A DNA stretch of 64,000 nt from Parabacteroides johnsonii DSM 18315 (lineage in GTDB: Bacteria; Bacteroidota; Bacteroidia; Bacteroidales; Tannerellaceae). A program made the position numbers and the translations under genes. The notes under the pieces are model-generated. The model was not told the origin of the DNA and made no database searches. It was given only the letters and a program-made list of their open reading frames with translations. Shown here piece after piece: positions 1-8,718 of the stretch (positions are counted from its first letter, which is position 1; each line of letters starts with the position of its first letter). The stretch covers positions 3,782,001 to 3,846,000 of the forward strand of contig NZ_CP102285.1 in the NCBI RefSeq assembly GCF_025151045.1. Direction: 5' to 3'.

Positions 1-134
1 GTCACTTCCGACGTACGTTTAAAGCTTTCGGGCAACGTATCATTTTTAACCACTTCCGGTAGCTTTATCACCAACTGGGCATTTTTTAAAGACAGATAAA
101 CCGGATTTCCGAAATAGAGCGTTTTCTTGATCAT
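1..134 (-). CDS. cas1: Cas1, CRISPR integrase (type II-C), N-terminal fragment cut by the window edge
   Basis: Reading the minus strand from an ATG at 134 gives 44 codons that run off the left edge, beginning MIKKTLYFGNPVYLSLKN and continuing with LVIKLPEV and NDTLPESFKR. This is the characteristic beta-strand-rich N terminus of Cas1 from Bacteroidetes type II-C loci. Cas1 with Cas2 inserts new spacers into the CRISPR array. The catalytic Glu/His/Asp residues lie outside the window. It follows the BRO-N gene by 48 bases in the same direction, so cas9, bro and cas1 are probably one transcript. The call rests on recognising the N terminus only. Confidence 0.87.
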   Translation of the reverse strand, partial: MIKKTLYFGNPVYLSLKNAQLVIKLPEVVKNDTLPESFKRTSEV

Positions 135-182: not shown

Positions 183-1016
183 TTATTGAAGATCATTGCC
201 TTTTTCGCCTAATTTAGGTAAAAAGTTTTCCGGAGTAAGAATACTCCTTCCTAATTCTTTTTCGGCTTGTTCACGCGCCACACCAGCTACATTTCCTCCC
301 CGCTTCGCGACCTGCTTATTTTTCTGAAATGTATCAGTTTTTTCTTTTTGAGATATTTCTGTAATGACTCGTTCGCCAAGCATGGTGAAGATTAGTTCCA
401 AATCAGTCATATGGTCGCGTAAGTTCTGATTCTTTTTTGTCAATCCATTATACATTTTATAATCGAAAGGAGCCATACCAAACGTTGCTTTGGAAATTTC
501 AGCTGTCAAGATTGCATAATCACTCTGCTCCGTAATCCCTCTCTCTTTCCATTCATCCGTCAAGTTTTGCCGGATAGCGATTCCCCTCAAACGTTTGTCT
601 ATCCAATCCTTAGGATAACCTTTCTGTTCGTAAAGTTCTTTCATACGTTCTTGAGCCAGTTCCGGATTTTCAATTTCCTGCACACGTTCATAACCGACTT
701 GTGCTAACCACAACTTGAATGGTTCTGCTTTAGGGGAAGGAATAGATTGGATGATACGAAACAAAGCTTGCACATTAGCAGCCAATGTCCTTCTTTTTTT
801 ACCTGTTTCCGTCATCATTTCTACCTGGGGACAATTTGTCCCCAGGTAGGTAGCCAGTGCTTCATCTCGTTTACGCATCTTTTTCAGGTAGTCAGTTGGA
901 TTCACACTATCTGTAAGTGCTCCAACAACATCCACTACTGAAAAGTACCATTGCTGTTCTTCTTCATCCCATACAGAACGAATCTTTTTATTTTGGAAAA
1001 GTTTGATGTTGCTCAT
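183..1016 (-). CDS. BRO-N domain protein (phage antirepressor-like) lying between cas9 and cas1
   Basis: A 277-residue protein. Residues about 1-110 form a BRO-N domain (start MSNIKLFQNKKIRSVWDEEE, then WYFSVVDVVGALT and LFRIIQSIPSPKAEPFKLWL), a fold found in phage antirepressors and baculovirus BRO proteins and thought to bind DNA. Residues about 120-230 (KDWIDKRLRGIAIRQNLT, then DYAILTAEISKATFGM) match the C-terminal half common to bacterial members of this family. The start codon is 13 bases after the cas9 stop, and cas1 starts 48 bases after this gene ends, all leftward, so it sits inside the cas operon. Typical type II-C operons are cas9-cas1-cas2, so this is an extra gene. Its role is unknown: it could be a cargo gene, a regulator of the locus, or a chance insertion that kept the frame of transcription. 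A perfect 29-base palindrome lies inside the coding region. Confidence 0.85.
   Translation of the reverse strand: MSNIKLFQNKKIRSVWDEEEQQWYFSVVDVVGALTDSVNPTDYLKKMRKRDEALATYLGTNCPQVEMMTETGKKRRTLAANVQALFRIIQSIPSPKAEPFKLWLAQVGYERVQEIENPELAQERMKELYEQKGYPKDWIDKRLRGIAIRQNLTDEWKERGITEQSDYAILTAEISKATFGMAPFDYKMYNGLTKKNQNLRDHMTDLELIFTMLGERVITEISQKEKTDTFQKNKQVAKRGGNVAGVAREQAEKELGRSILTPENFLPKLGEKGNDLQ
821..849. repeat. Perfect 29-base palindrome inside the BRO-N coding sequence
   Basis: Two 14-base arms (CTACCTGGGGACAA and its exact reverse complement) flank a single central base. It encodes the YLGTNCPQV stretch of the BRO-N protein (about residues 57-65). Such length and perfection are not required by the peptide. 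It may be a protein-binding site or a palindromic element domesticated within the gene. Confidence 0.9.
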
Positions 1017-1029
1017 AATATAAATTTTT

Positions 1030-4000
1030 TCAATATTCTCCTACTGAAACGATTTGTCCAATGTGATTGATTCGAACTTTCACAATATCCTTAATACCAC
1101 TTTTTCCACATCTAATCCAAGTTATGAATTTTAAATCATTTTGTATCGTTGTCTCTAAGTGGTGTCTAAAAGTATAGTCATTTAAACCTATCTTCTGTAC
1201 CCTAAACAAATTCGGACTAATCATCGCATAGTTGTCTGGATCCAACAAATCCACCTCTTTAGGATTAAAACCCGTCTTCTCATTAGGGAACACGAAATAT
1301 TCATTTTGTTTCATGCTAAACAAAAATTGCCAACCTTCACTCTTTTTATAGTCCTTATCAATAATAGGTATTCCTAAATTTGCCCGTGTTACAGCTTCAA
1401 AGAAAGGAACAACATCTTCATCTAGTTCATACATTGGATTGCCTTCATCATCAAATATCACTTGGCCTTTTTTGTCTAAAACAGGTTTACGATAAATCGC
1501 AACGTGATGATTGTTACCTGTATTCACAAAATCAACCGGTATCCTCTTTCCTGTTTCATCTAAAATGAAATTGCCATCTTTATCTTTTTTATCATGCAAA
1601 GCTTGGGCTTTGCTGATTCCACGGATAGTAACTCGTTTGATACTAATCCCTTTCTCTTCATTTAACCATATTGGATTCTCATCCAGATTGACAAACGCCT
1701 TCTTAGCATCTCCTCCATATTCTTTCAGGCGTTGTTCCAAAATGAGACGTATCTTTTTATCTACAACTTTATCTACATTCAAGGTAGGATCAACCGGTTT
1801 GCGTATCGTATAAGCCGTTTCCAGTTCAACTGTTTGTACTTTATCCGGAACTTGTATGGTTTGTGCTCTATCAAGATAAATCGGATTCTTTTCCAACGAG
1901 TTCTTACCTGTAAATGCTTTCTTGGGATCATTACCAAAAACCTCCAAACGTTTGAGTAACGCATTCCGATAATCCTGTTTACTTACGGTTGCAATCTTTA
2001 CGGCATCAAATGACGCATTTACTTTTTCTATCTTCGTAACATACTGATTATGACTCCCATAAATTGTTTCCAAATGCAACTGTCCACGTGGTGTTTGTTG
2101 TGTATTTTTATATGTACCACCTTTCTTTTTTATACAATTCACATTGGTAGTAACGACTTTATTCTTGGCCTTGATAGAAACTAACAGATTCTCCAAATGG
2201 CATTTTGCCTCTACCCGGAACTGTCCCAGCGGTATAGGTGGCACTGCCTTTCCTGACTCAAAATAGCGCGTCTTTATACCTACTATATTAGTATGTTCTT
2301 TGCTGTCGGATTCCCATGCAGCATTTTTGTTATTGAAATACTGGATAAACACATCTTTAGTAAAAGCTACCGTCAATGCATCCATCGCATGATGTCGATG
2401 GTCATTCCTTTTTGTCCAATCTTTTATTCGCTTAATCTTTCTTCCATCTTTGTCTTCATAAACTTCCACCAATCCTAAGGCTTCATATTTAGGTAAGTTC
2501 AACTCTTTCATCACATCTACCAGTTGCCAATCTTCACGCAACTTATCCGTAATAGATCCGGTTGTAGCAACCACCCTACGACAAATTTCCGTCAACATGG
2601 ACAGAGCCTTTTTGGCTATATATTGCGTATTCCTCAAATCTCTATCTATAAATCCATCCGGAATTTCATTCAGCTCCATCTTCAACTTCCGGAGTTTGGC
2701 TTTCTTATCCTTACATAGATTCTCACAACGATTGAGATATTGTTGCAAACCTTCCTCTCCATATTTTTCTTTTACAAAGTCGTAGGCAGTTTTATTCCCT
2801 TTCTCTATATTGATTGACTTATATTCCAATGTCTTATTGGACAACGAGTCATCAAAAAGCCGGGATTGGGGAATGATATGTTCGATGTCTATTTCTTTGC
2901 TGAAAAGTTTTTCTCTCGGGATATATTGATTGGAATACAACGTCTTATATCCATTATCTTTCAATTCTTCATAAAGTTTATACCGGATAATATCATTACG
3001 GCTCACATTTATCATACCGAATTCCGATTGTAACACCTTGCGTATCTCTTCATGTTCACGGGTATTCTTTGCGACAGCCTTTGTCAGCTCCTCTCGCTCC
3101 TTGGCACTCTTTTTCAATTCCCGCGCCAGTTCCACCCGAATCTCATCCGGTCTTCCATAAACCTCCATGACGGTATTGATCACATTTACCATTTGATTCA
3201 GAATCTTTTCCACTACAGGATTGCGTAAACTGTTCTTAGGAAGAATTTCCAACTTATCCTTTAAAACCTTATTTTCAATTTCTTCCTTAGTCAGAGACGA
3301 TTTGGAATGACGATAACCGGCATATTCACAAGCCATATCATATTGGTTCCCCTCCTTCAAGTAAAGCAAAATCTTTTTTATGGCCTTGGCACTCAAACTA
3401 CCATAATCATCTTGTAACGAGACATTCGCAAGTTCTATGGCATACTCTTTCTCTATCCCACAAAGTTGCATGATTTTTTCTATCAACTTGCCATTCCCCG
3501 TCGGTGTATTATCTCCTTCAAATGAATACAATAAATGCCAAAGCCTGAAATAAGGTTGTTTTTCCCATTCTTTATTTTCCTTATCCAAGTCTATAAAAAG
3601 CAAATCCGTATTCCATCCCAAATCGGTAAAAACAGTTTTCAGTTGACTTATCAGATCTTCTGCCGGTTTCTTAAAATCCAATGGTTCATAGCCATACTTC
3701 TCGATCATGTTACTATAGGCAGAGAAAAGGGCAAATCCCGTTTGATTGCCATCTATCTGTTTGAAATTTATATCCAGTTCTTGTGGATTTTCAAATAAGA
3801 GTCTTAATATTTCCGCTTTTGTCAAACCCTTTTTTATAGAGAGTTCTTTAGCTAATATCTTTTTTTCTTCTTGATACAGAAACCGTCTACCTTCTGTTAT
3901 CAAGGCATCCTCCGTATCACCAAACAAATCAGACGAAACATTCGATTTCTTCCGCTTCCCTTTTTTTTCACCAACAAACACCTCTATATTATTTAATGTC

Positions 4001-5319
4001 TGCCAAATCTTAAACTCCTGAAACAACGGATGCGAACGGGGGATAACCTTGCAACCAATAATCTTTGTCTGCTTCTTACCCTCTTTTTCAACAACGACTT
4101 CCCGATTTTCAAACTCACAAAAACTAATCAATCCCTTCTGGCTTTTCAACCGCCTTTGATAGAAAATAATGATGTCACGTATCTCCTTCTTCAATTCAGG
4201 TGTCAGTTCTTTATGAAATTCGGCTTGCTTCTCCCAAATAACATTGAACTCATCCAAATAATCTTGCCGATAAAATACCATATTTCGTAAACTCATATTG
4301 GGATTCTTATTGAGTTCTGCCATCTGATACTGTCCTACCGTCTGACGATTGAAATAAAGCACTTTACTACGGTCACTGATAGCTCCCAAATAACCGCTTG
4401 ACGCACTTATCTGGCCATTGATTTCTTGCAATACTACGGCTATTTTTTCTAAGTCCAATTGCTCAGTAAGGGCTTGCACACGCCAACGATAATTTTCCTT
4501 TTTCAGTTCCTCCCCTTTTACCGTCCGCTTAAGGCCAACAAGTTTATACACTTCTTCTCTATTCTCTGTTTGAGCCTCATGTTCATTCCAAACGTTTACC
4601 TTTTTCGTTTCTACAAAATATTTTGCCAAGATAGCCCACGTCTGACTTTTATTCTTCCCTTTGACTTCTTCTTTGGCAACATCACAAAAAGAAAAGAGAT
4701 TGAATTGCTTTTGGAAATCCCATATCTTGTTAAATTCTTCTTGCAGATCTGAACGATAAAAATCAGGGAAAAACTTTTTTCCTGATTCAAGTAATTGTAA
4801 ACAAAGCTGCCCTGGAGTCAGATCTTCATCATACAATTTCTTAGCAATCTCCATTCCGTCAATCAAAGCCCCCTCTTCTTCTCCCTTTGCTTTCCGGCTA
4901 CTTTTATAACCACGCTTCTTATTAATCATCAACAATACACGTGCCAATTCTTTCAAAGATATCTCCTCTTCAGCTGCTTTAGCTCGTAAACGATAGGTTT
5001 CAAACGTAGTTCTGTTTCCTTGTTCCGAAAGTATCGTTTTATCTGTAATAAAACCTACTTTTTTCAGAAGTTCAATCAACGCATCCCGACGTAATTTATA
5101 CCGTTGCAGATTACGGCGCATACTTCTTTTTAAAGTTCTATCAGCATTCGTAGTGATACTTTTCCCTTTTTCAAAGTTTTGCATTTCATCCACTGTCAAA
5201 GGATTTACCCTTACTCCTAATTTAATAATAGACGATACTTCATCACTATTTTCGGCTTCGTTTACTAATGCCCACCCTATACTACTCGTACCTAAATCCA
5301 GCCCTAAAATCTTTTTCAT
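1030..5319 (-). CDS. cas9: Cas9 RNA-guided DNA endonuclease, type II-C
   Basis: A 1429-residue protein starting MKKILGLDLGTSSIGWALVN. An upstream in-frame ATG would add 19 residues, but the RuvC-I motif conventionally sits at the very N terminus and a TAnnTTTG box lies at 5341-5348, so 5319 is chosen. RuvC-I Asp is D8. An arginine-rich bridge helix follows (RTLKRSMRRNLQRYKLRR). RuvC-II is EIRVELARELK with Glu about 730. The HNH nuclease reads DIEHIIPQSRLFDD with the catalytic His about 814. RuvC-III is HRHHAMDALTVAF with His about 977 and Asp about 980. All catalytic residues are present, so the nuclease should be active. Length and single-gene layout without csn2 or cas4 nearby fit the long Bacteroidetes II-C group. 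It cleaves DNA matched by a crRNA-tracrRNA duplex; the tracrRNA is encoded divergently just upstream. Confidence 0.96.
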   Translation of the reverse strand: MKKILGLDLGTSSIGWALVNEAENSDEVSSIIKLGVRVNPLTVDEMQNFEKGKSITTNADRTLKRSMRRNLQRYKLRRDALIELLKKVGFITDKTILSEQGNRTTFETYRLRAKAAEEEISLKELARVLLMINKKRGYKSSRKAKGEEEGALIDGMEIAKKLYDEDLTPGQLCLQLLESGKKFFPDFYRSDLQEEFNKIWDFQKQFNLFSFCDVAKEEVKGKNKSQTWAILAKYFVETKKVNVWNEHEAQTENREEVYKLVGLKRTVKGEELKKENYRWRVQALTEQLDLEKIAVVLQEINGQISASSGYLGAISDRSKVLYFNRQTVGQYQMAELNKNPNMSLRNMVFYRQDYLDEFNVIWEKQAEFHKELTPELKKEIRDIIIFYQRRLKSQKGLISFCEFENREVVVEKEGKKQTKIIGCKVIPRSHPLFQEFKIWQTLNNIEVFVGEKKGKRKKSNVSSDLFGDTEDALITEGRRFLYQEEKKILAKELSIKKGLTKAEILRLLFENPQELDINFKQIDGNQTGFALFSAYSNMIEKYGYEPLDFKKPAEDLISQLKTVFTDLGWNTDLLFIDLDKENKEWEKQPYFRLWHLLYSFEGDNTPTGNGKLIEKIMQLCGIEKEYAIELANVSLQDDYGSLSAKAIKKILLYLKEGNQYDMACEYAGYRHSKSSLTKEEIENKVLKDKLEILPKNSLRNPVVEKILNQMVNVINTVMEVYGRPDEIRVELARELKKSAKEREELTKAVAKNTREHEEIRKVLQSEFGMINVSRNDIIRYKLYEELKDNGYKTLYSNQYIPREKLFSKEIDIEHIIPQSRLFDDSLSNKTLEYKSINIEKGNKTAYDFVKEKYGEEGLQQYLNRCENLCKDKKAKLRKLKMELNEIPDGFIDRDLRNTQYIAKKALSMLTEICRRVVATTGSITDKLREDWQLVDVMKELNLPKYEALGLVEVYEDKDGRKIKRIKDWTKRNDHRHHAMDALTVAFTKDVFIQYFNNKNAAWESDSKEHTNIVGIKTRYFESGKAVPPIPLGQFRVEAKCHLENLLVSIKAKNKVVTTNVNCIKKKGGTYKNTQQTPRGQLHLETIYGSHNQYVTKIEKVNASFDAVKIATVSKQDYRNALLKRLEVFGNDPKKAFTGKNSLEKNPIYLDRAQTIQVPDKVQTVELETAYTIRKPVDPTLNVDKVVDKKIRLILEQRLKEYGGDAKKAFVNLDENPIWLNEEKGISIKRVTIRGISKAQALHDKKDKDGNFILDETGKRIPVDFVNTGNNHHVAIYRKPVLDKKGQVIFDDEGNPMYELDEDVVPFFEAVTRANLGIPIIDKDYKKSEGWQFLFSMKQNEYFVFPNEKTGFNPKEVDLLDPDNYAMISPNLFRVQKIGLNDYTFRHHLETTIQNDLKFITWIRCGKSGIKDIVKVRINHIGQIVSVGEY

Positions 5320-5340
5320 GGTATACTGTTTTAATTTTTC

Positions 5341-5348
5341 CAAATATA
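5341..5348 (-). promoter_or_regulatory. Probable -7 promoter box for cas9
   Basis: On the minus strand this reads TATATTTG, an exact match to the Bacteroidetes -7 consensus TAnnTTTG, 22 bases before the cas9 ATG. No clear -33 TTTG is seen at the usual distance. It lies back-to-back with the tracrRNA promoter. Confidence 0.5.
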
Positions 5349-5369
5349 ATAACTTTATCATCAAAAAAC

Positions 5370-5401
5370 ATTGCACACAAACCTTTCATTTCATATATTT
5401 G
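5370..5401 (+). promoter_or_regulatory. Promoter for tracrRNA
   Basis: A -33 like ATTG (5370-5373) is followed after 20 bases by TATATTTG (5394-5401), an exact TAnnTTTG -7 box. Transcription should start near 5406-5408, exactly where the anti-repeat of the tracrRNA begins. Confidence 0.65.
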
Positions 5402-5405
5402 TGAC

Positions 5406-5490
5406 ACTAAAATGAAGCAAATCACAATAAGGATTATTCCGTTGTGAAAACATTAGGTTCCCTCGCCCTTCTGCGGGGGATTTTTTTGTA
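5406..5490 (+). ncRNA. tracrRNA of the type II-C CRISPR system
   Basis: Bases 5406-5427 read ACTAAAATGAAGCAAATCAC plus AA, nearly the reverse complement of the 5' part of the repeat I recall from Bacteroides type II-C arrays (starting GTTGTGATTTGC). It is therefore an anti-repeat. It is followed by a small nexus-like hairpin (GGATTATTCC, 5431-5440), a GTTGTGAAAAC stretch and a GC-rich Rho-independent terminator. Size about 85 nt. It has its own Bacteroidetes promoter and diverges from cas9. The expected role is pairing with pre-crRNA repeats for RNase III processing and Cas9 loading. The array itself is not in the window, so the pairing cannot be checked here. Confidence 0.8.
5461..5489 (+). 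terminator. Rho-independent terminator of tracrRNA
   Basis: A 7-bp stem CCCTCGC/GCGGGGG (one G-T pair) with a short loop is followed by a run of seven T. It ends the tracrRNA and also forms its 3' hairpin. Confidence 0.8.
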
Positions 5491-5593
5491 AGTCACTCTA
5501 CACTTTCAGGTCTATTCTATCCAACAAATTTTTCATCCTCCTTCCCCCTTATTGTATTATTCCGTAAAAAGCCATTCGTCCAAATCGAAACTA

Positions 5594-5637
5594 CTACCTC
5601 ATCTAATTCGATTTTCTACCCCATCTAATTCAAATTT
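5594..5637. repeat. Two tandem 22-base imperfect repeats upstream of leuS
   Basis: Two adjacent copies starting at 5594 and 5616 share CTACCYCATCTAATTC with a diverged A/T-rich end. They lie in the 390-base gap between tracrRNA and leuS. Their role is unknown; they may be operator half-sites. A related TAGATGGGTATCTAC stretch lies near 5740. Confidence 0.6.
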
Positions 5638-5763
5638 CCTTATAGGGTAATATTTTTTAAGAAACAGACATTTTTATCATTTTGCTATAAACCAACAATT
5701 TATTGTATCTTTTAGATCTAAAGGGAGATATTGTAATTTCTAGATGGGTATCTACAATTCCCG

Positions 5764-5779
5764 GAGTGAAATTTCACTC
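5764..5779. promoter_or_regulatory. Perfect 16-base palindrome, possible operator upstream of leuS
   Basis: GAGTGAAATTTCACTC is a perfect dyad with no spacer, 53 bases before the leuS -7 box. The position and symmetry suit a dimeric DNA-binding protein. It could equally be chance. Confidence 0.35.
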
Positions 5780-5831
5780 TGTCCATTCTTGCAATTTGCT
5801 GCTTCAAACCTCTATGTATTACAAAATTCAC

Positions 5832-5839
5832 TAACTTTG
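5832..5839 (+). promoter_or_regulatory. -7 promoter box for leuS
   Basis: TAACTTTG is an exact TAnnTTTG match, 41 bases before the leuS ATG. No good -33 TTTG lies at the usual spacing. Confidence 0.55.
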
Positions 5840-5880
5840 TGGCTTTAAATAGAAAACGATAAAATAAACGATAAACGATC

Positions 5881-8718
5881 ATGGAGTACAATTTCAGAGA
5901 AATTGAGAAAAAGTGGCACGAATACTGGATTGCCAATAAGGTTTATAAAGTCGAAAAGAATACCGACAAACCAAAGTATTACGTTTTGGACATGTTCCCT
6001 TATCCGTCAGGAGCAGGACTGCACGTAGGCCACCCACTCGGTTACATCGCTTCTGATATTTATTCCCGTTACAAACGCTTGCAGGGTTTCAATGTTTTAC
6101 ATCCGATGGGCTACGATGCCTACGGACTGCCTGCAGAACAATATGCCATCCAGACCGGACAACATCCAGAAGTAACGACTAAGAAAAACATTGCCCGTTA
6201 TCGGGAACAGATGGACAAAATAGGTTTCAGCTATGACTGGAGCCGCGAAATCCGTACTTGTGATCCCGAATATTATAAATGGACGCAATGGGCATTTATC
6301 CAGATGTTCAACAGTTATTACTGCAACAACAAAAAACAGGCACGTCCTATCAGTGAATTGGTTGCAGCTTTCGAACAGTCCGGAACGGAAGACTTGAATG
6401 TCGCTTGCAGCGAAGAATTGCATTTCACCGCCAATGAATGGAAAGCCAAAAGCGAAAAAGAAAAACAGGAAATCCTGCTTAACTACCGGATTGCTTACCG
6501 GGGAGAAACAATGGTAAACTGGTGCGCTGCACTGGGCACCGTATTGGCCAACGACGAAGTAGTGAACGGTGTTTCCGAACGTGGTGGCTATCCGGTGGAA
6601 CAAAAGATCATGCGTCAGTGGTGTCTACGCGTATCCGCTTATGCACAACGGCTTCTGGACGGACTGGACACAATTGACTGGACAGATTCGTTAAAAGAAA
6701 CACAGCGCAACTGGATCGGTCGTAGCGAAGGTGCCGAGATCCAGTTCAAAGTAAAAGACAGCGACCTTGAGTTTACCATCTTTACAACCCGCGCTGATAC
6801 CATGTTCGGTGTTACTTTTATGGTTCTGGCTCCCGAAAGCGAACTGGTCGCACAATTGACGACTCCCCAACAAAAGCAAGAAGTCGATGCTTATCTGGAC
6901 CGTACAAAAAAACGTACGGAACGCGAACGTATTGCCGACCGTTCTGTCACCGGTGTATTCAGCGGTTCATATGCAATCAACCCGTTCACCGGTGACGCTG
7001 TGCCCGTCTGGATCAGCGACTATGTATTGGCTGGCTACGGAACCGGCGCTATCATGGCCGTTCCCGCACACGACAGCCGTGACTATGCCTTTGCCAAACA
7101 TTTCAATCTGCCGGTTGTCCCATTGATCGAAGGCTGTGACGTAAGCGAAGAAAGTTTCGATGCAAAAGAAGGAATCGTCTGCAACTCACCAAGACCGGAT
7201 GTAGCGCCTTATTGCGACCTGTCATTGAACGGCCTGACCGTAAAAGAAGCAATTGCCGCCACTAAGAAATATGTGGTAGAACATAAATTAGGACGCGTAA
7301 AAGTGAACTATCGTTTACGCGACGCTATTTTCAGCCGCCAGCGTTATTGGGGTGAACCGTTCCCTGTCTACTATGATGCAGATGGTATGCCTCAGATGTT
7401 GCCGGTAGACAAGTTGCCGCTGGAATTGCCTGAAGTAGACAAATTTTTGCCGACCGAAACAGGCGAACCTCCTTTAGGACATGCCGTAAAATGGGCATGG
7501 GACACCGTAAAACAGGAAGTTACGGAAGTTTCCAAAATAGACAACGAAACTATCTTCCCGTTGGAACTTTGTACGATGCCGGGATTCGCCGGTTCATCCG
7601 CCTATTACCTACGCTACATGGACCCGCACAACGACCAGGCTTTAGTTGCTAAAGACGTAGACGAATACTGGCGCAACGTAGACCTGTATATCGGTGGTAC
7701 CGAACATGCTACCGGACACCTGATCTACAGCCGTTTTTGGAATAAATTTCTGTTTGACTTAGGTGTCGTTTGTGAAGAGGAACCGTTCAAGAAACTGATC
7801 AATCAGGGTATGATCCAAGGGCGTTCCAATTTCGTATACCGTATCAACGGCACCAACAAATTCGTATCCCTGAACCTGAAAGACCAGTATGAGGTCACTC
7901 CTATCCATGTAGACGTAAACATCGTATCAAACGATATATTGGATATCGAAGCCTTCAAAAACTGGCGTCCGGAATATAACGATGCAGAATTCGTATTGGA
8001 AGATGGCAAATACATCTGCGGATGGGCTGTTGAAAAGATGTCGAAATCCATGTTCAACGTGGTCAACCCAGATATGATTGTCGAGAAATATGGCGCCGAC
8101 ACGCTTCGCTTGTATGAAATGTTCTTAGGTCCGTTGGAACAGTCCAAACCGTGGGATACGAATGGCATCGACGGCGTACACCGCTTCTTGAAAAAACTCT
8201 GGGGACTGTTCTTCGGCAATACGGACACCTTGCAGATCACGGATGCAGAACCGACAGCCGATGAATTGAAATCATTACATAAACTGATCAAGAAAGTGAC
8301 ATACGATATTGAACATTTCTCGTACAACACTTCCATCAGTGCCTTTATGATCTGTGTAAACGAACTCAGCAGCCTGAAATGCAACAAACGGACAATCCTG
8401 GAACAGTTAATCGTTCTGCTCGCTCCATTCGCTCCTCATACTGCTGAAGAATTATGGCATACCTGCGGTCACGATACCACCGTATGCGATGCCGAATGGC
8501 CTGTCTACAACGAAGAATACTTGAAAGAAAACTCGCTCACTTATGCTATCTCCTTCAACGGCAAAGCCCGTTTCAGTATGGAACTTCCGGCCGATATGCC
8601 CCGCGAAGAGATAGAAAAAGCCGCTCTTGCCCATGAAAATTCTGCTAAGTGGATGGAAGGCAAGACTCCGAAAAAGATTATCGTTGTTCCCGGAAAGATT
8701 GTAAACATCGTAATCTAA
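5881..8718 (+). CDS. leuS: Leucine-tRNA ligase
   Basis: A 945-residue class I aminoacyl-tRNA synthetase that charges tRNA-Leu in the cytoplasm. The HIGH motif is HVGH at residues 48-51 (after PYPSGAGL) and KMSKS is at 719-723. The CP1 editing domain is recognisable between them ([17 protein letters not shown] and later [19 protein letters not shown]), so mischarged tRNA should be hydrolysed. The usual C-terminal anticodon-binding part and a short C-terminal beta domain follow. The length fits Bacteroidetes LeuRS, which are somewhat longer than the E. coli enzyme. The yitT-like gene follows after 10 bases and is probably cotranscribed. Confidence 0.98.

Follow-up and report, generated by a model that had tools for sequence, protein, structure and literature searches.

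A Bro-N gene found in CRISPR and restriction operons carries a putative operator of its own within a swappable cassette

What is a small gene with a Bro-N domain doing between cas9 and cas1? We considered this question for Parabacteroides johnsonii DSM 18315, in a 64,000-nucleotide (nt) stretch of its genome (contig NZ_CP102285.1, positions 3,782,001 to 3,846,000, assembly GCF_025151045.1), hereafter the window. The gene, here termed bro, is an open reading frame (ORF) at 183-1016 on the minus strand that starts with ATG and encodes 277 amino acids (aa). With the end of cas9 at 1030 and the start of cas1 at 134 on the same strand, bro is spaced 13 nt from cas9 and 48 nt from cas1; the co-directional insertion of a Bro-N gene described in the initial annotation is borne out by these ORF coordinates and by Pfam. 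Relatives of bro recur at this position and in other clustered regularly interspaced short palindromic repeats (CRISPR) and restriction-modification (R-M) operons, and the gene contains a palindrome whose half-site covaries with a putative recognition helix encoded in the same exchangeable segment. We propose that bro may be a portable regulator of itself and of the genes behind it.

To place bro among its relatives, we scanned one genome per species and obtained 252 relatives, the best 80 of which were read. The survey of II-C loci that the initial annotation had called for returned ~40 distinct loci in which bro lies directly between cas9 and cas1, mostly with gaps of -8 to +60 nt towards cas9 and of -8 to +23 nt towards cas1, a placement far above chance. 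These loci rule out a one-strain curiosity. The annotation had named confinement to one strain, with near-identical copies scattered elsewhere, as telling against it; this genome holds no near-identical copy, its second family member being a 44% identical paralogue beside polysaccharide genes. A role as specific Cas9 partner is ruled out as well: the adjoining Cas9s are down to 25% identical to this one while bro is ~70-90% identical.

The same family occupies comparable positions in three other settings. First, in 10 type V-A loci, mainly from Treponema and Bacteroidota, bro follows the class 2 effector and lies next to V-A arrays (...AATTTCTACTGTTGTAGAT in the loci checked); cas4-cas1 lies downstream of bro in 8 of the 10. 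This set includes L030, for which an initial II-C label in the tree was rejected, and L073, which has a 1166-aa effector without a match to the Cas12a profiles used and a Cas12a-like fragment upstream. The Cas12a denominator in the Bacteroidota draw is one genome only, too few to be informative. Second, in type I systems the order is cas7-bro-cas4-cas1-cas2 (I-C) in three loci and cas3-bro-cas4-cas1-cas2 in one, and one I-C operon is headed by bro, which overlaps cas3 by four nucleotides; an initial cas4-based V-A label was rejected for L228, L236, L239, and L241, which are type I. Third, in R-M operons, types I and III among them, we found mod-bro-res (type III), hsdS-bro-hsdR, AAA-bro-hsdR, and hsdS-bro-hsdM; bro also follows an MmeI-type enzyme and, separately, a GmrSD-type protein. 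The gene is co-directional with and upstream of integrase or nuclease genes always in CRISPR operons and in most R-M operons read. An even draw of 395 Bacteroidota genomes yielded members at E <= 1e-80 in 16 genera, 8 of which had at least one copy in a CRISPR or R-M operon. Separately, a HIRAN-domain gene lies directly upstream of a member for which no cas neighbour was seen (L042 6507-6878). The functional tie that had been suggested thus stands as far as recurrence in II-C, V-A, type I, and R-M operons goes. It links bro to DNA-targeting defence operons in general; a role specific to adaptation is not supported.

The features of the gene on which our argument turns are as follows.

183..1016, minus strand: Bro-N / PDC-S13 gene, 277 aa, with a DdrC/DinD-like predicted fold (ORF, Pfam, PADLOC hidden Markov model (HMM), structure prediction)
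762..905, minus strand: swappable cassette, residues 38-85, with helices 40-50 and 52-61 and strands 64-68 and 74-80 of the winged-helix domain
821..849, no strand: palindrome CTACCTGGGGACA-ATT-TGTCCCCAGGTAG, putative own operator, centred at 835 (codon 61), from an inverted-repeat scan
867..899, minus strand: putative recognition helix, residues 40-50, of which residues 41, 42, 44, and 45 covary with the half-site

In 109 of 111 family genes, the best inverted repeat within the cassette has its centre at codon 61. Its arm averages 8.7 nt and reaches 18, against a mean of 4.8 elsewhere in the genes, where no arm of 9 nt or more occurs; synonymous shuffles gave a mean arm of 4.7, and for 54 genes the observed arm exceeded that of all 60 shuffles. 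Watson-Crick pairing holds in 94-99 of 99 unique windows at distances 2-7 and in 96 of 99 at distance 12. The arms differ by cassette type, with compensated changes, and one cassette type translates the same palindrome in a different reading frame (WVQFVP versus WGTICTP), so it is the DNA, not the peptide, that is conserved. The palindrome is kept in homologues only 37-57% identical on viral contigs, and the longest inverted repeat of Escherichia coli dinD also lies at residue 61. Mismatches show no G-U preference, A-C mismatches being no rarer than G-U, which favours a role of the DNA over one of the RNA; a role in RNA alone is on this count not favoured.

The perfect palindrome occurs once in this genome, inside bro only, and looser matches in the genome are no commoner than those of a reversed control. 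A search of 965 kb of loci turned up two further copies (<=2 mismatches), and a bro relic contains one of these. An operator in the cas9 promoter, to which the initial annotation had looked for DNA binding, is rejected, as no second site lies before cas9, in the rest of the locus, or elsewhere in the genome. As a separate observation, L055 carries an extra copy of the core of its own bro palindrome (GTACCCATATTGGGTAC) at 6203-6219, 15 nt behind an unrelated 390-aa gene.

The segment around the palindrome is exchanged as a unit. Mean identity is 42% in cassette residues 38-85 versus 71% in residues 86-265, and the cassette comes in a small number of discrete types, each seen again in distant branches; a tree built from the C-terminal part requires at least 38 changes of type. 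Pairs that are 98-100% identical in residues 89-265 can be as little as 23-33% identical in the cassette; likewise, in two Treponema V-A loci the flanking DNA is mostly 95-100% identical and the cassette DNA 35-53%. The same types appear across II-C, V-A, type I, and R-M contexts, indicating that the cassette is not tailored to any Cas partner.

The half-site is predicted by residues 38-55 (adjusted mutual information, AMI, 0.78-0.96); neither the C-terminus (AMI 0.08-0.26) nor residues 3-25 (0.09-0.15) predict it. Outside the codons that make up the palindrome core, the best predictors are residues 41, 42, 44, and 45, all in helix 40-50. Asp42 goes with GGGAC in 42 of 42 cases and Gln42 with GGTAC in 20 of 20, across backgrounds and reading frames, and the rule holds inside cassette types 3 and 5 taken alone (4 versus 6 and 3 versus 14 members).

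Recurrent position, cassette exchange, a fixed palindrome, a helix-to-half-site code, and a unique site are regularities of the sequences themselves; beyond them, we infer DNA binding, dimerisation, a roadblock, and an inducing signal. We suggest that bro is a portable autoregulator that binds an operator inside its own gene and throttles the genes downstream, an explanation that we hold at slightly less than even. A winged-helix protein of the DdrC/DinD fold would recognise the palindrome in its own coding sequence, and a D42Q change would be expected to shift its preference from GGGGACAA to GGGTACAA. Because helix and cognate palindrome share one exchangeable cassette, specificity could be swapped while the match is kept. 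Placed in line in an operon, bro would need no promoter of its own. A winged-helix protein whose only site lies in its own gene fits negative autoregulation by roadblock, in which binding to the internal operator would limit the bro transcript and everything downstream. The genes downstream of bro in defence operons are mostly an integrase (cas1), cas4, or a nuclease (hsdR, res, cas3); those throttled would be cas1-cas2 here and cas4-cas1, hsdR, res, or cas3 elsewhere. DNA damage or phage attack might release the roadblock. We consider it possible, at a lower probability than for this gene, that there is a class of such self-addressed portable regulators, in which the helix segment contains its cognate operator, is exchanged as one cassette, and has been dropped into CRISPR-Cas and restriction operons to control dangerous downstream genes. 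Autoregulators with intragenic operators and R-M controller proteins offer a parallel, in that a regulator sits inside its own operon and a nuclease gene is held back; they differ in that the bro operator would lie within the part that codes for the DNA-binding domain and be exchanged with it.

Several points weigh against the autoregulator. About half of the relatives have no recognised defence operon. The messenger RNA hairpin predicted at the palindrome is strong (z -5.4), which leaves room for an RNA role. A recombination or gene-conversion hotspot would likewise show up as a site confined to its own gene. Finally, helix and palindrome are physically linked, so part of their covariation is hitch-hiking; the switches between Asp42 and Gln42 within one cassette type argue against linkage alone.

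Alternatively, bro may be a stand-alone immunity or exclusion factor. It would recognise, in a bro gene brought in by a phage or plasmid, the palindrome that matches its own and silence or mark the incoming element, much as prophage repressors exclude superinfecting relatives, with residence in defence operons providing co-expression. Family members with their palindromes do lie on phage-like contigs, the family occurs on plasmids too, PADLOC lists it as a defence candidate, several members stand outside the CRISPR operon after leaving it, and cassette exchange is the expected outcome of an arms race over specificity. However, matches above 60% are rare or absent in phage and plasmid collections, and the protein has no recognisable effector activity; we regard this explanation as unlikely, if by no means negligible.

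How common bro is, and how it came to the locus, was assessed from the cas1 side in an even draw of 393 Bacteroidales genomes (142 with a match, 120 loci fetched). cas9 and cas1 are adjacent in 74 of the 120 loci, are separated by other genes or long gaps in 38, and have bro between them in 2 (~2%), which rules out bro as a common II-C feature. Within Bacteroidaceae, bro lies next to cas1 in this genome only. Two near relatives without bro (cas9 85-87% and cas1 ~90% identical) have a cas9-cas1 spacer of 132 or 151 nt. With L206, one of these two relatives, the DNA of the locus agrees along cas9 as far as the 3' part of that gene, and agreement resumes 18 nt before cas1. With Bacteroides muris the match is unbroken from where bro begins to the array, taking in cas1 and cas2, cas9 being distant; by sequence comparison, the locus is a mosaic. 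Over 32 loci, the divergence of cas1 does not track that of cas9 (r 0.03), and Cas9 shuffling in II-C has been described (PMC12669027). On the tree, the II-C members come close to a single group (42 of 49 rows; Shimodaira-Hasegawa-like approximate likelihood ratio test, SH-aLRT, 83), from which a few members appear to have moved out. V-A, type I, and R-M members take several other positions, which requires several independent recruitments.

The slot has other tenants. A REP-associated tyrosine transposase-like gene (~210 aa) lies between cas9 and cas1 in 27 of the 120 loci (L134, L149, L161, L168, L182, and others; NCBIfam NF047646 match below cut-off) and is a second recurrent tenant. The bro-less spacers of L206 (3446-3577) and L207 (3492-3642) contain REP-like palindromes (GGTTGTACCC and GGGTACAACC) that resemble half-sites of some bro palindromes, and RhuM-family genes or remnants lie in or beside the slot or bro (L087 6339-6581, L060 6499-6987, L230 2298-2642). 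In L206, cas9 (3578-7874) is in two overlapping frames, possibly through a frameshift. Fragments of the bro N-terminus persist near full-length copies (L239 1279-1452, L229 396-644, L251 1352-1483, L269 423-635); some are apparently of another cassette type, and such relics are possible cassette donors or leftovers of replacement. Another reading takes bro for a hitch-hiker, a small mobile gene in a permissive gap between interference and adaptation genes that plays no part in the operon and whose palindrome would be a hotspot spreading cassettes. In its favour, the Bacteroidales gap hosts transposase-like genes, a RhuM-like remnant, and others, near relatives of the locus lack bro, bro relics accompany full copies, and about half of the family members have no recognised defence neighbour. 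Yet bro is under strong purifying selection (ratio of nonsynonymous to synonymous substitution rates, dN/dS, ~0.04 between near relatives), which marks it as a real gene, and neither repeated independent entry into CRISPR and R-M operons nor a helix/half-site code is expected of a passenger. We judge the hitch-hiker clearly unlikely.

The remaining features of the gene and its neighbours are listed here.

699..986, minus strand: Bro-N Pfam domain, residues 11-106 (Pfam match)
363..554, minus strand: C-terminal helical stretch, residues 155-218, alignable with E. coli DinD (hhalign)
1030..5319, minus strand: cas9 (type II-C), ~1429 aa (ORF and profile matches)
1..134, minus strand: 5' end of cas1, the remainder of which, with cas2 and the array, lies before the window start in the same genome (C1:3780562-3782134)

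With the genome sequence beyond the window included, the order is cas9-bro-cas1-cas2-array on one strand throughout. The array is small, with three 47-nt repeats outside the window. The locus has the cas9, cas1, cas2, and array of type II-C and lacks csn2 and cas4; a crude anti-repeat scan upstream of cas9 gave no clear candidate for the trans-activating CRISPR RNA (tracrRNA). The protein matches Bro-N PF02498 (E 8e-12, 46.1 bits versus a gathering cut-off of 25.6) and, over its whole length, the HMMs of PADLOC candidate PDC-S13 (E 2.7e-118, residues 2-269) and PHROG 15286 (E 6e-106). It does not qualify as a phage antirepressor, as it lies in a chromosomal cas operon with no repressor gene adjoining.

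The predicted structure points to DNA-damage proteins. The AlphaFold model (73 relatives; mean predicted local distance difference test, pLDDT, 88) has DdrC of Deinococcus radiodurans as its best solved-structure match (Foldseek E 1e-5; Z 14.7 over 210 residues; PDB 8u0g, 7udi, 7qvb), the next unrelated chain reaching Z 6.9. The two share the overall fold, a Bro-N-like winged helix and a helical C-terminus, but sequence identity is 12-14%; a PDB profile search with the bro protein does not find DdrC and returns nothing convincing among PDB sequences. DdrC is DNA-damage response protein C of Deinococcus, with a role at DNA breaks, and we know of no DdrC in a defence operon. E. coli DinD, the product of a LexA-regulated single gene, is of comparable length and build, with an alignable C-terminal stretch, but the alignment with the C-terminal half of bro is weak (hhalign probability 51%, 63 columns), and NCBIfam NF008573, the DinD equivalog, matches DinD at 8e-147, whereas no NCBIfam model, this one included, matches the bro protein. 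This kinship suggests damage as the signal that would release the roadblock of an autoregulator. It also invites a different reading, in which bro, like DdrC or DinD, is a break-sensing or RecA-modulating partner that handles ends cut by Cas9, Cas12a, Cas3, or restriction enzymes and blocks repair of the invader. The literature counts DinD as one of the proteins with an effect on RecA filaments (PMC4457935, PMC4849656), and the operon partners of bro are DNA-cleaving systems. A break sensor, however, needs neither a swappable reading cassette nor an intragenic palindrome, and the DinD likeness is weak, so we think this reading quite improbable.

Of the roles floated in the initial annotation, regulation of the locus gains support from a palindrome inside the gene that covaries with the recognition helix, and sensing of DNA damage from the DdrC/DinD-like predicted fold. 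Help with adaptation fares worse. As a cofactor of Cas1-Cas2, bro would be placed comparably to Csn2 or Cas4; it does lie where interference and adaptation genes meet in II-C, V-A, and type I loci, and in II-C its divergence tracks that of cas1 (r 0.37, p 2e-4) and cas2 (0.27) better than that of cas9 (0.11; 32 loci). This role is not favoured because arrays of carriers are not longer, if anything shorter (12 versus 91 loci, a comparison weakened by short draft contigs), and because R-M operons that lack cas1 also harbour the family, with the same cassette types; moreover, bro is absent from ~98% of Bacteroidales II-C loci. We consider an adaptation cofactor extremely improbable. The pro-CRISPR factor PcrIIC1 is likewise a non-cas gene in some II-C loci (PMC12669027, PMC13153721), but is a PIN domain that binds the Cas9 C-terminal helix and has no sequence relation to bro, whose family extends to V-A, type I, and R-M operons; a PcrIIC1-type factor is ruled out, as the bro protein has no PIN domain (Pfam: Bro-N only).

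The family was previously known by name only, PDC-S13 and PHROG 15286 being names of uncharacterised clusters; the descriptions of them that we saw do not include the CRISPR-operon position, the cassette exchange, or the intragenic palindrome, and in a literature search with partial coverage, subscription journals excluded, we found no paper on Bro-N in cas operons, the cassette, or the palindrome. If bro is an autoregulator, it would be a so far unrecognised regulator common to class 1 and class 2 CRISPR and to restriction systems, and would explain why one small gene has landed repeatedly between interference and adaptation genes. The helix-to-half-site table makes directly testable predictions and, if true, would amount to a naturally written protein-DNA recognition code. 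An operator coded within the DNA-binding domain, and exchanged along with it, would then offer a novel means of altering specificity while regulation stays intact.
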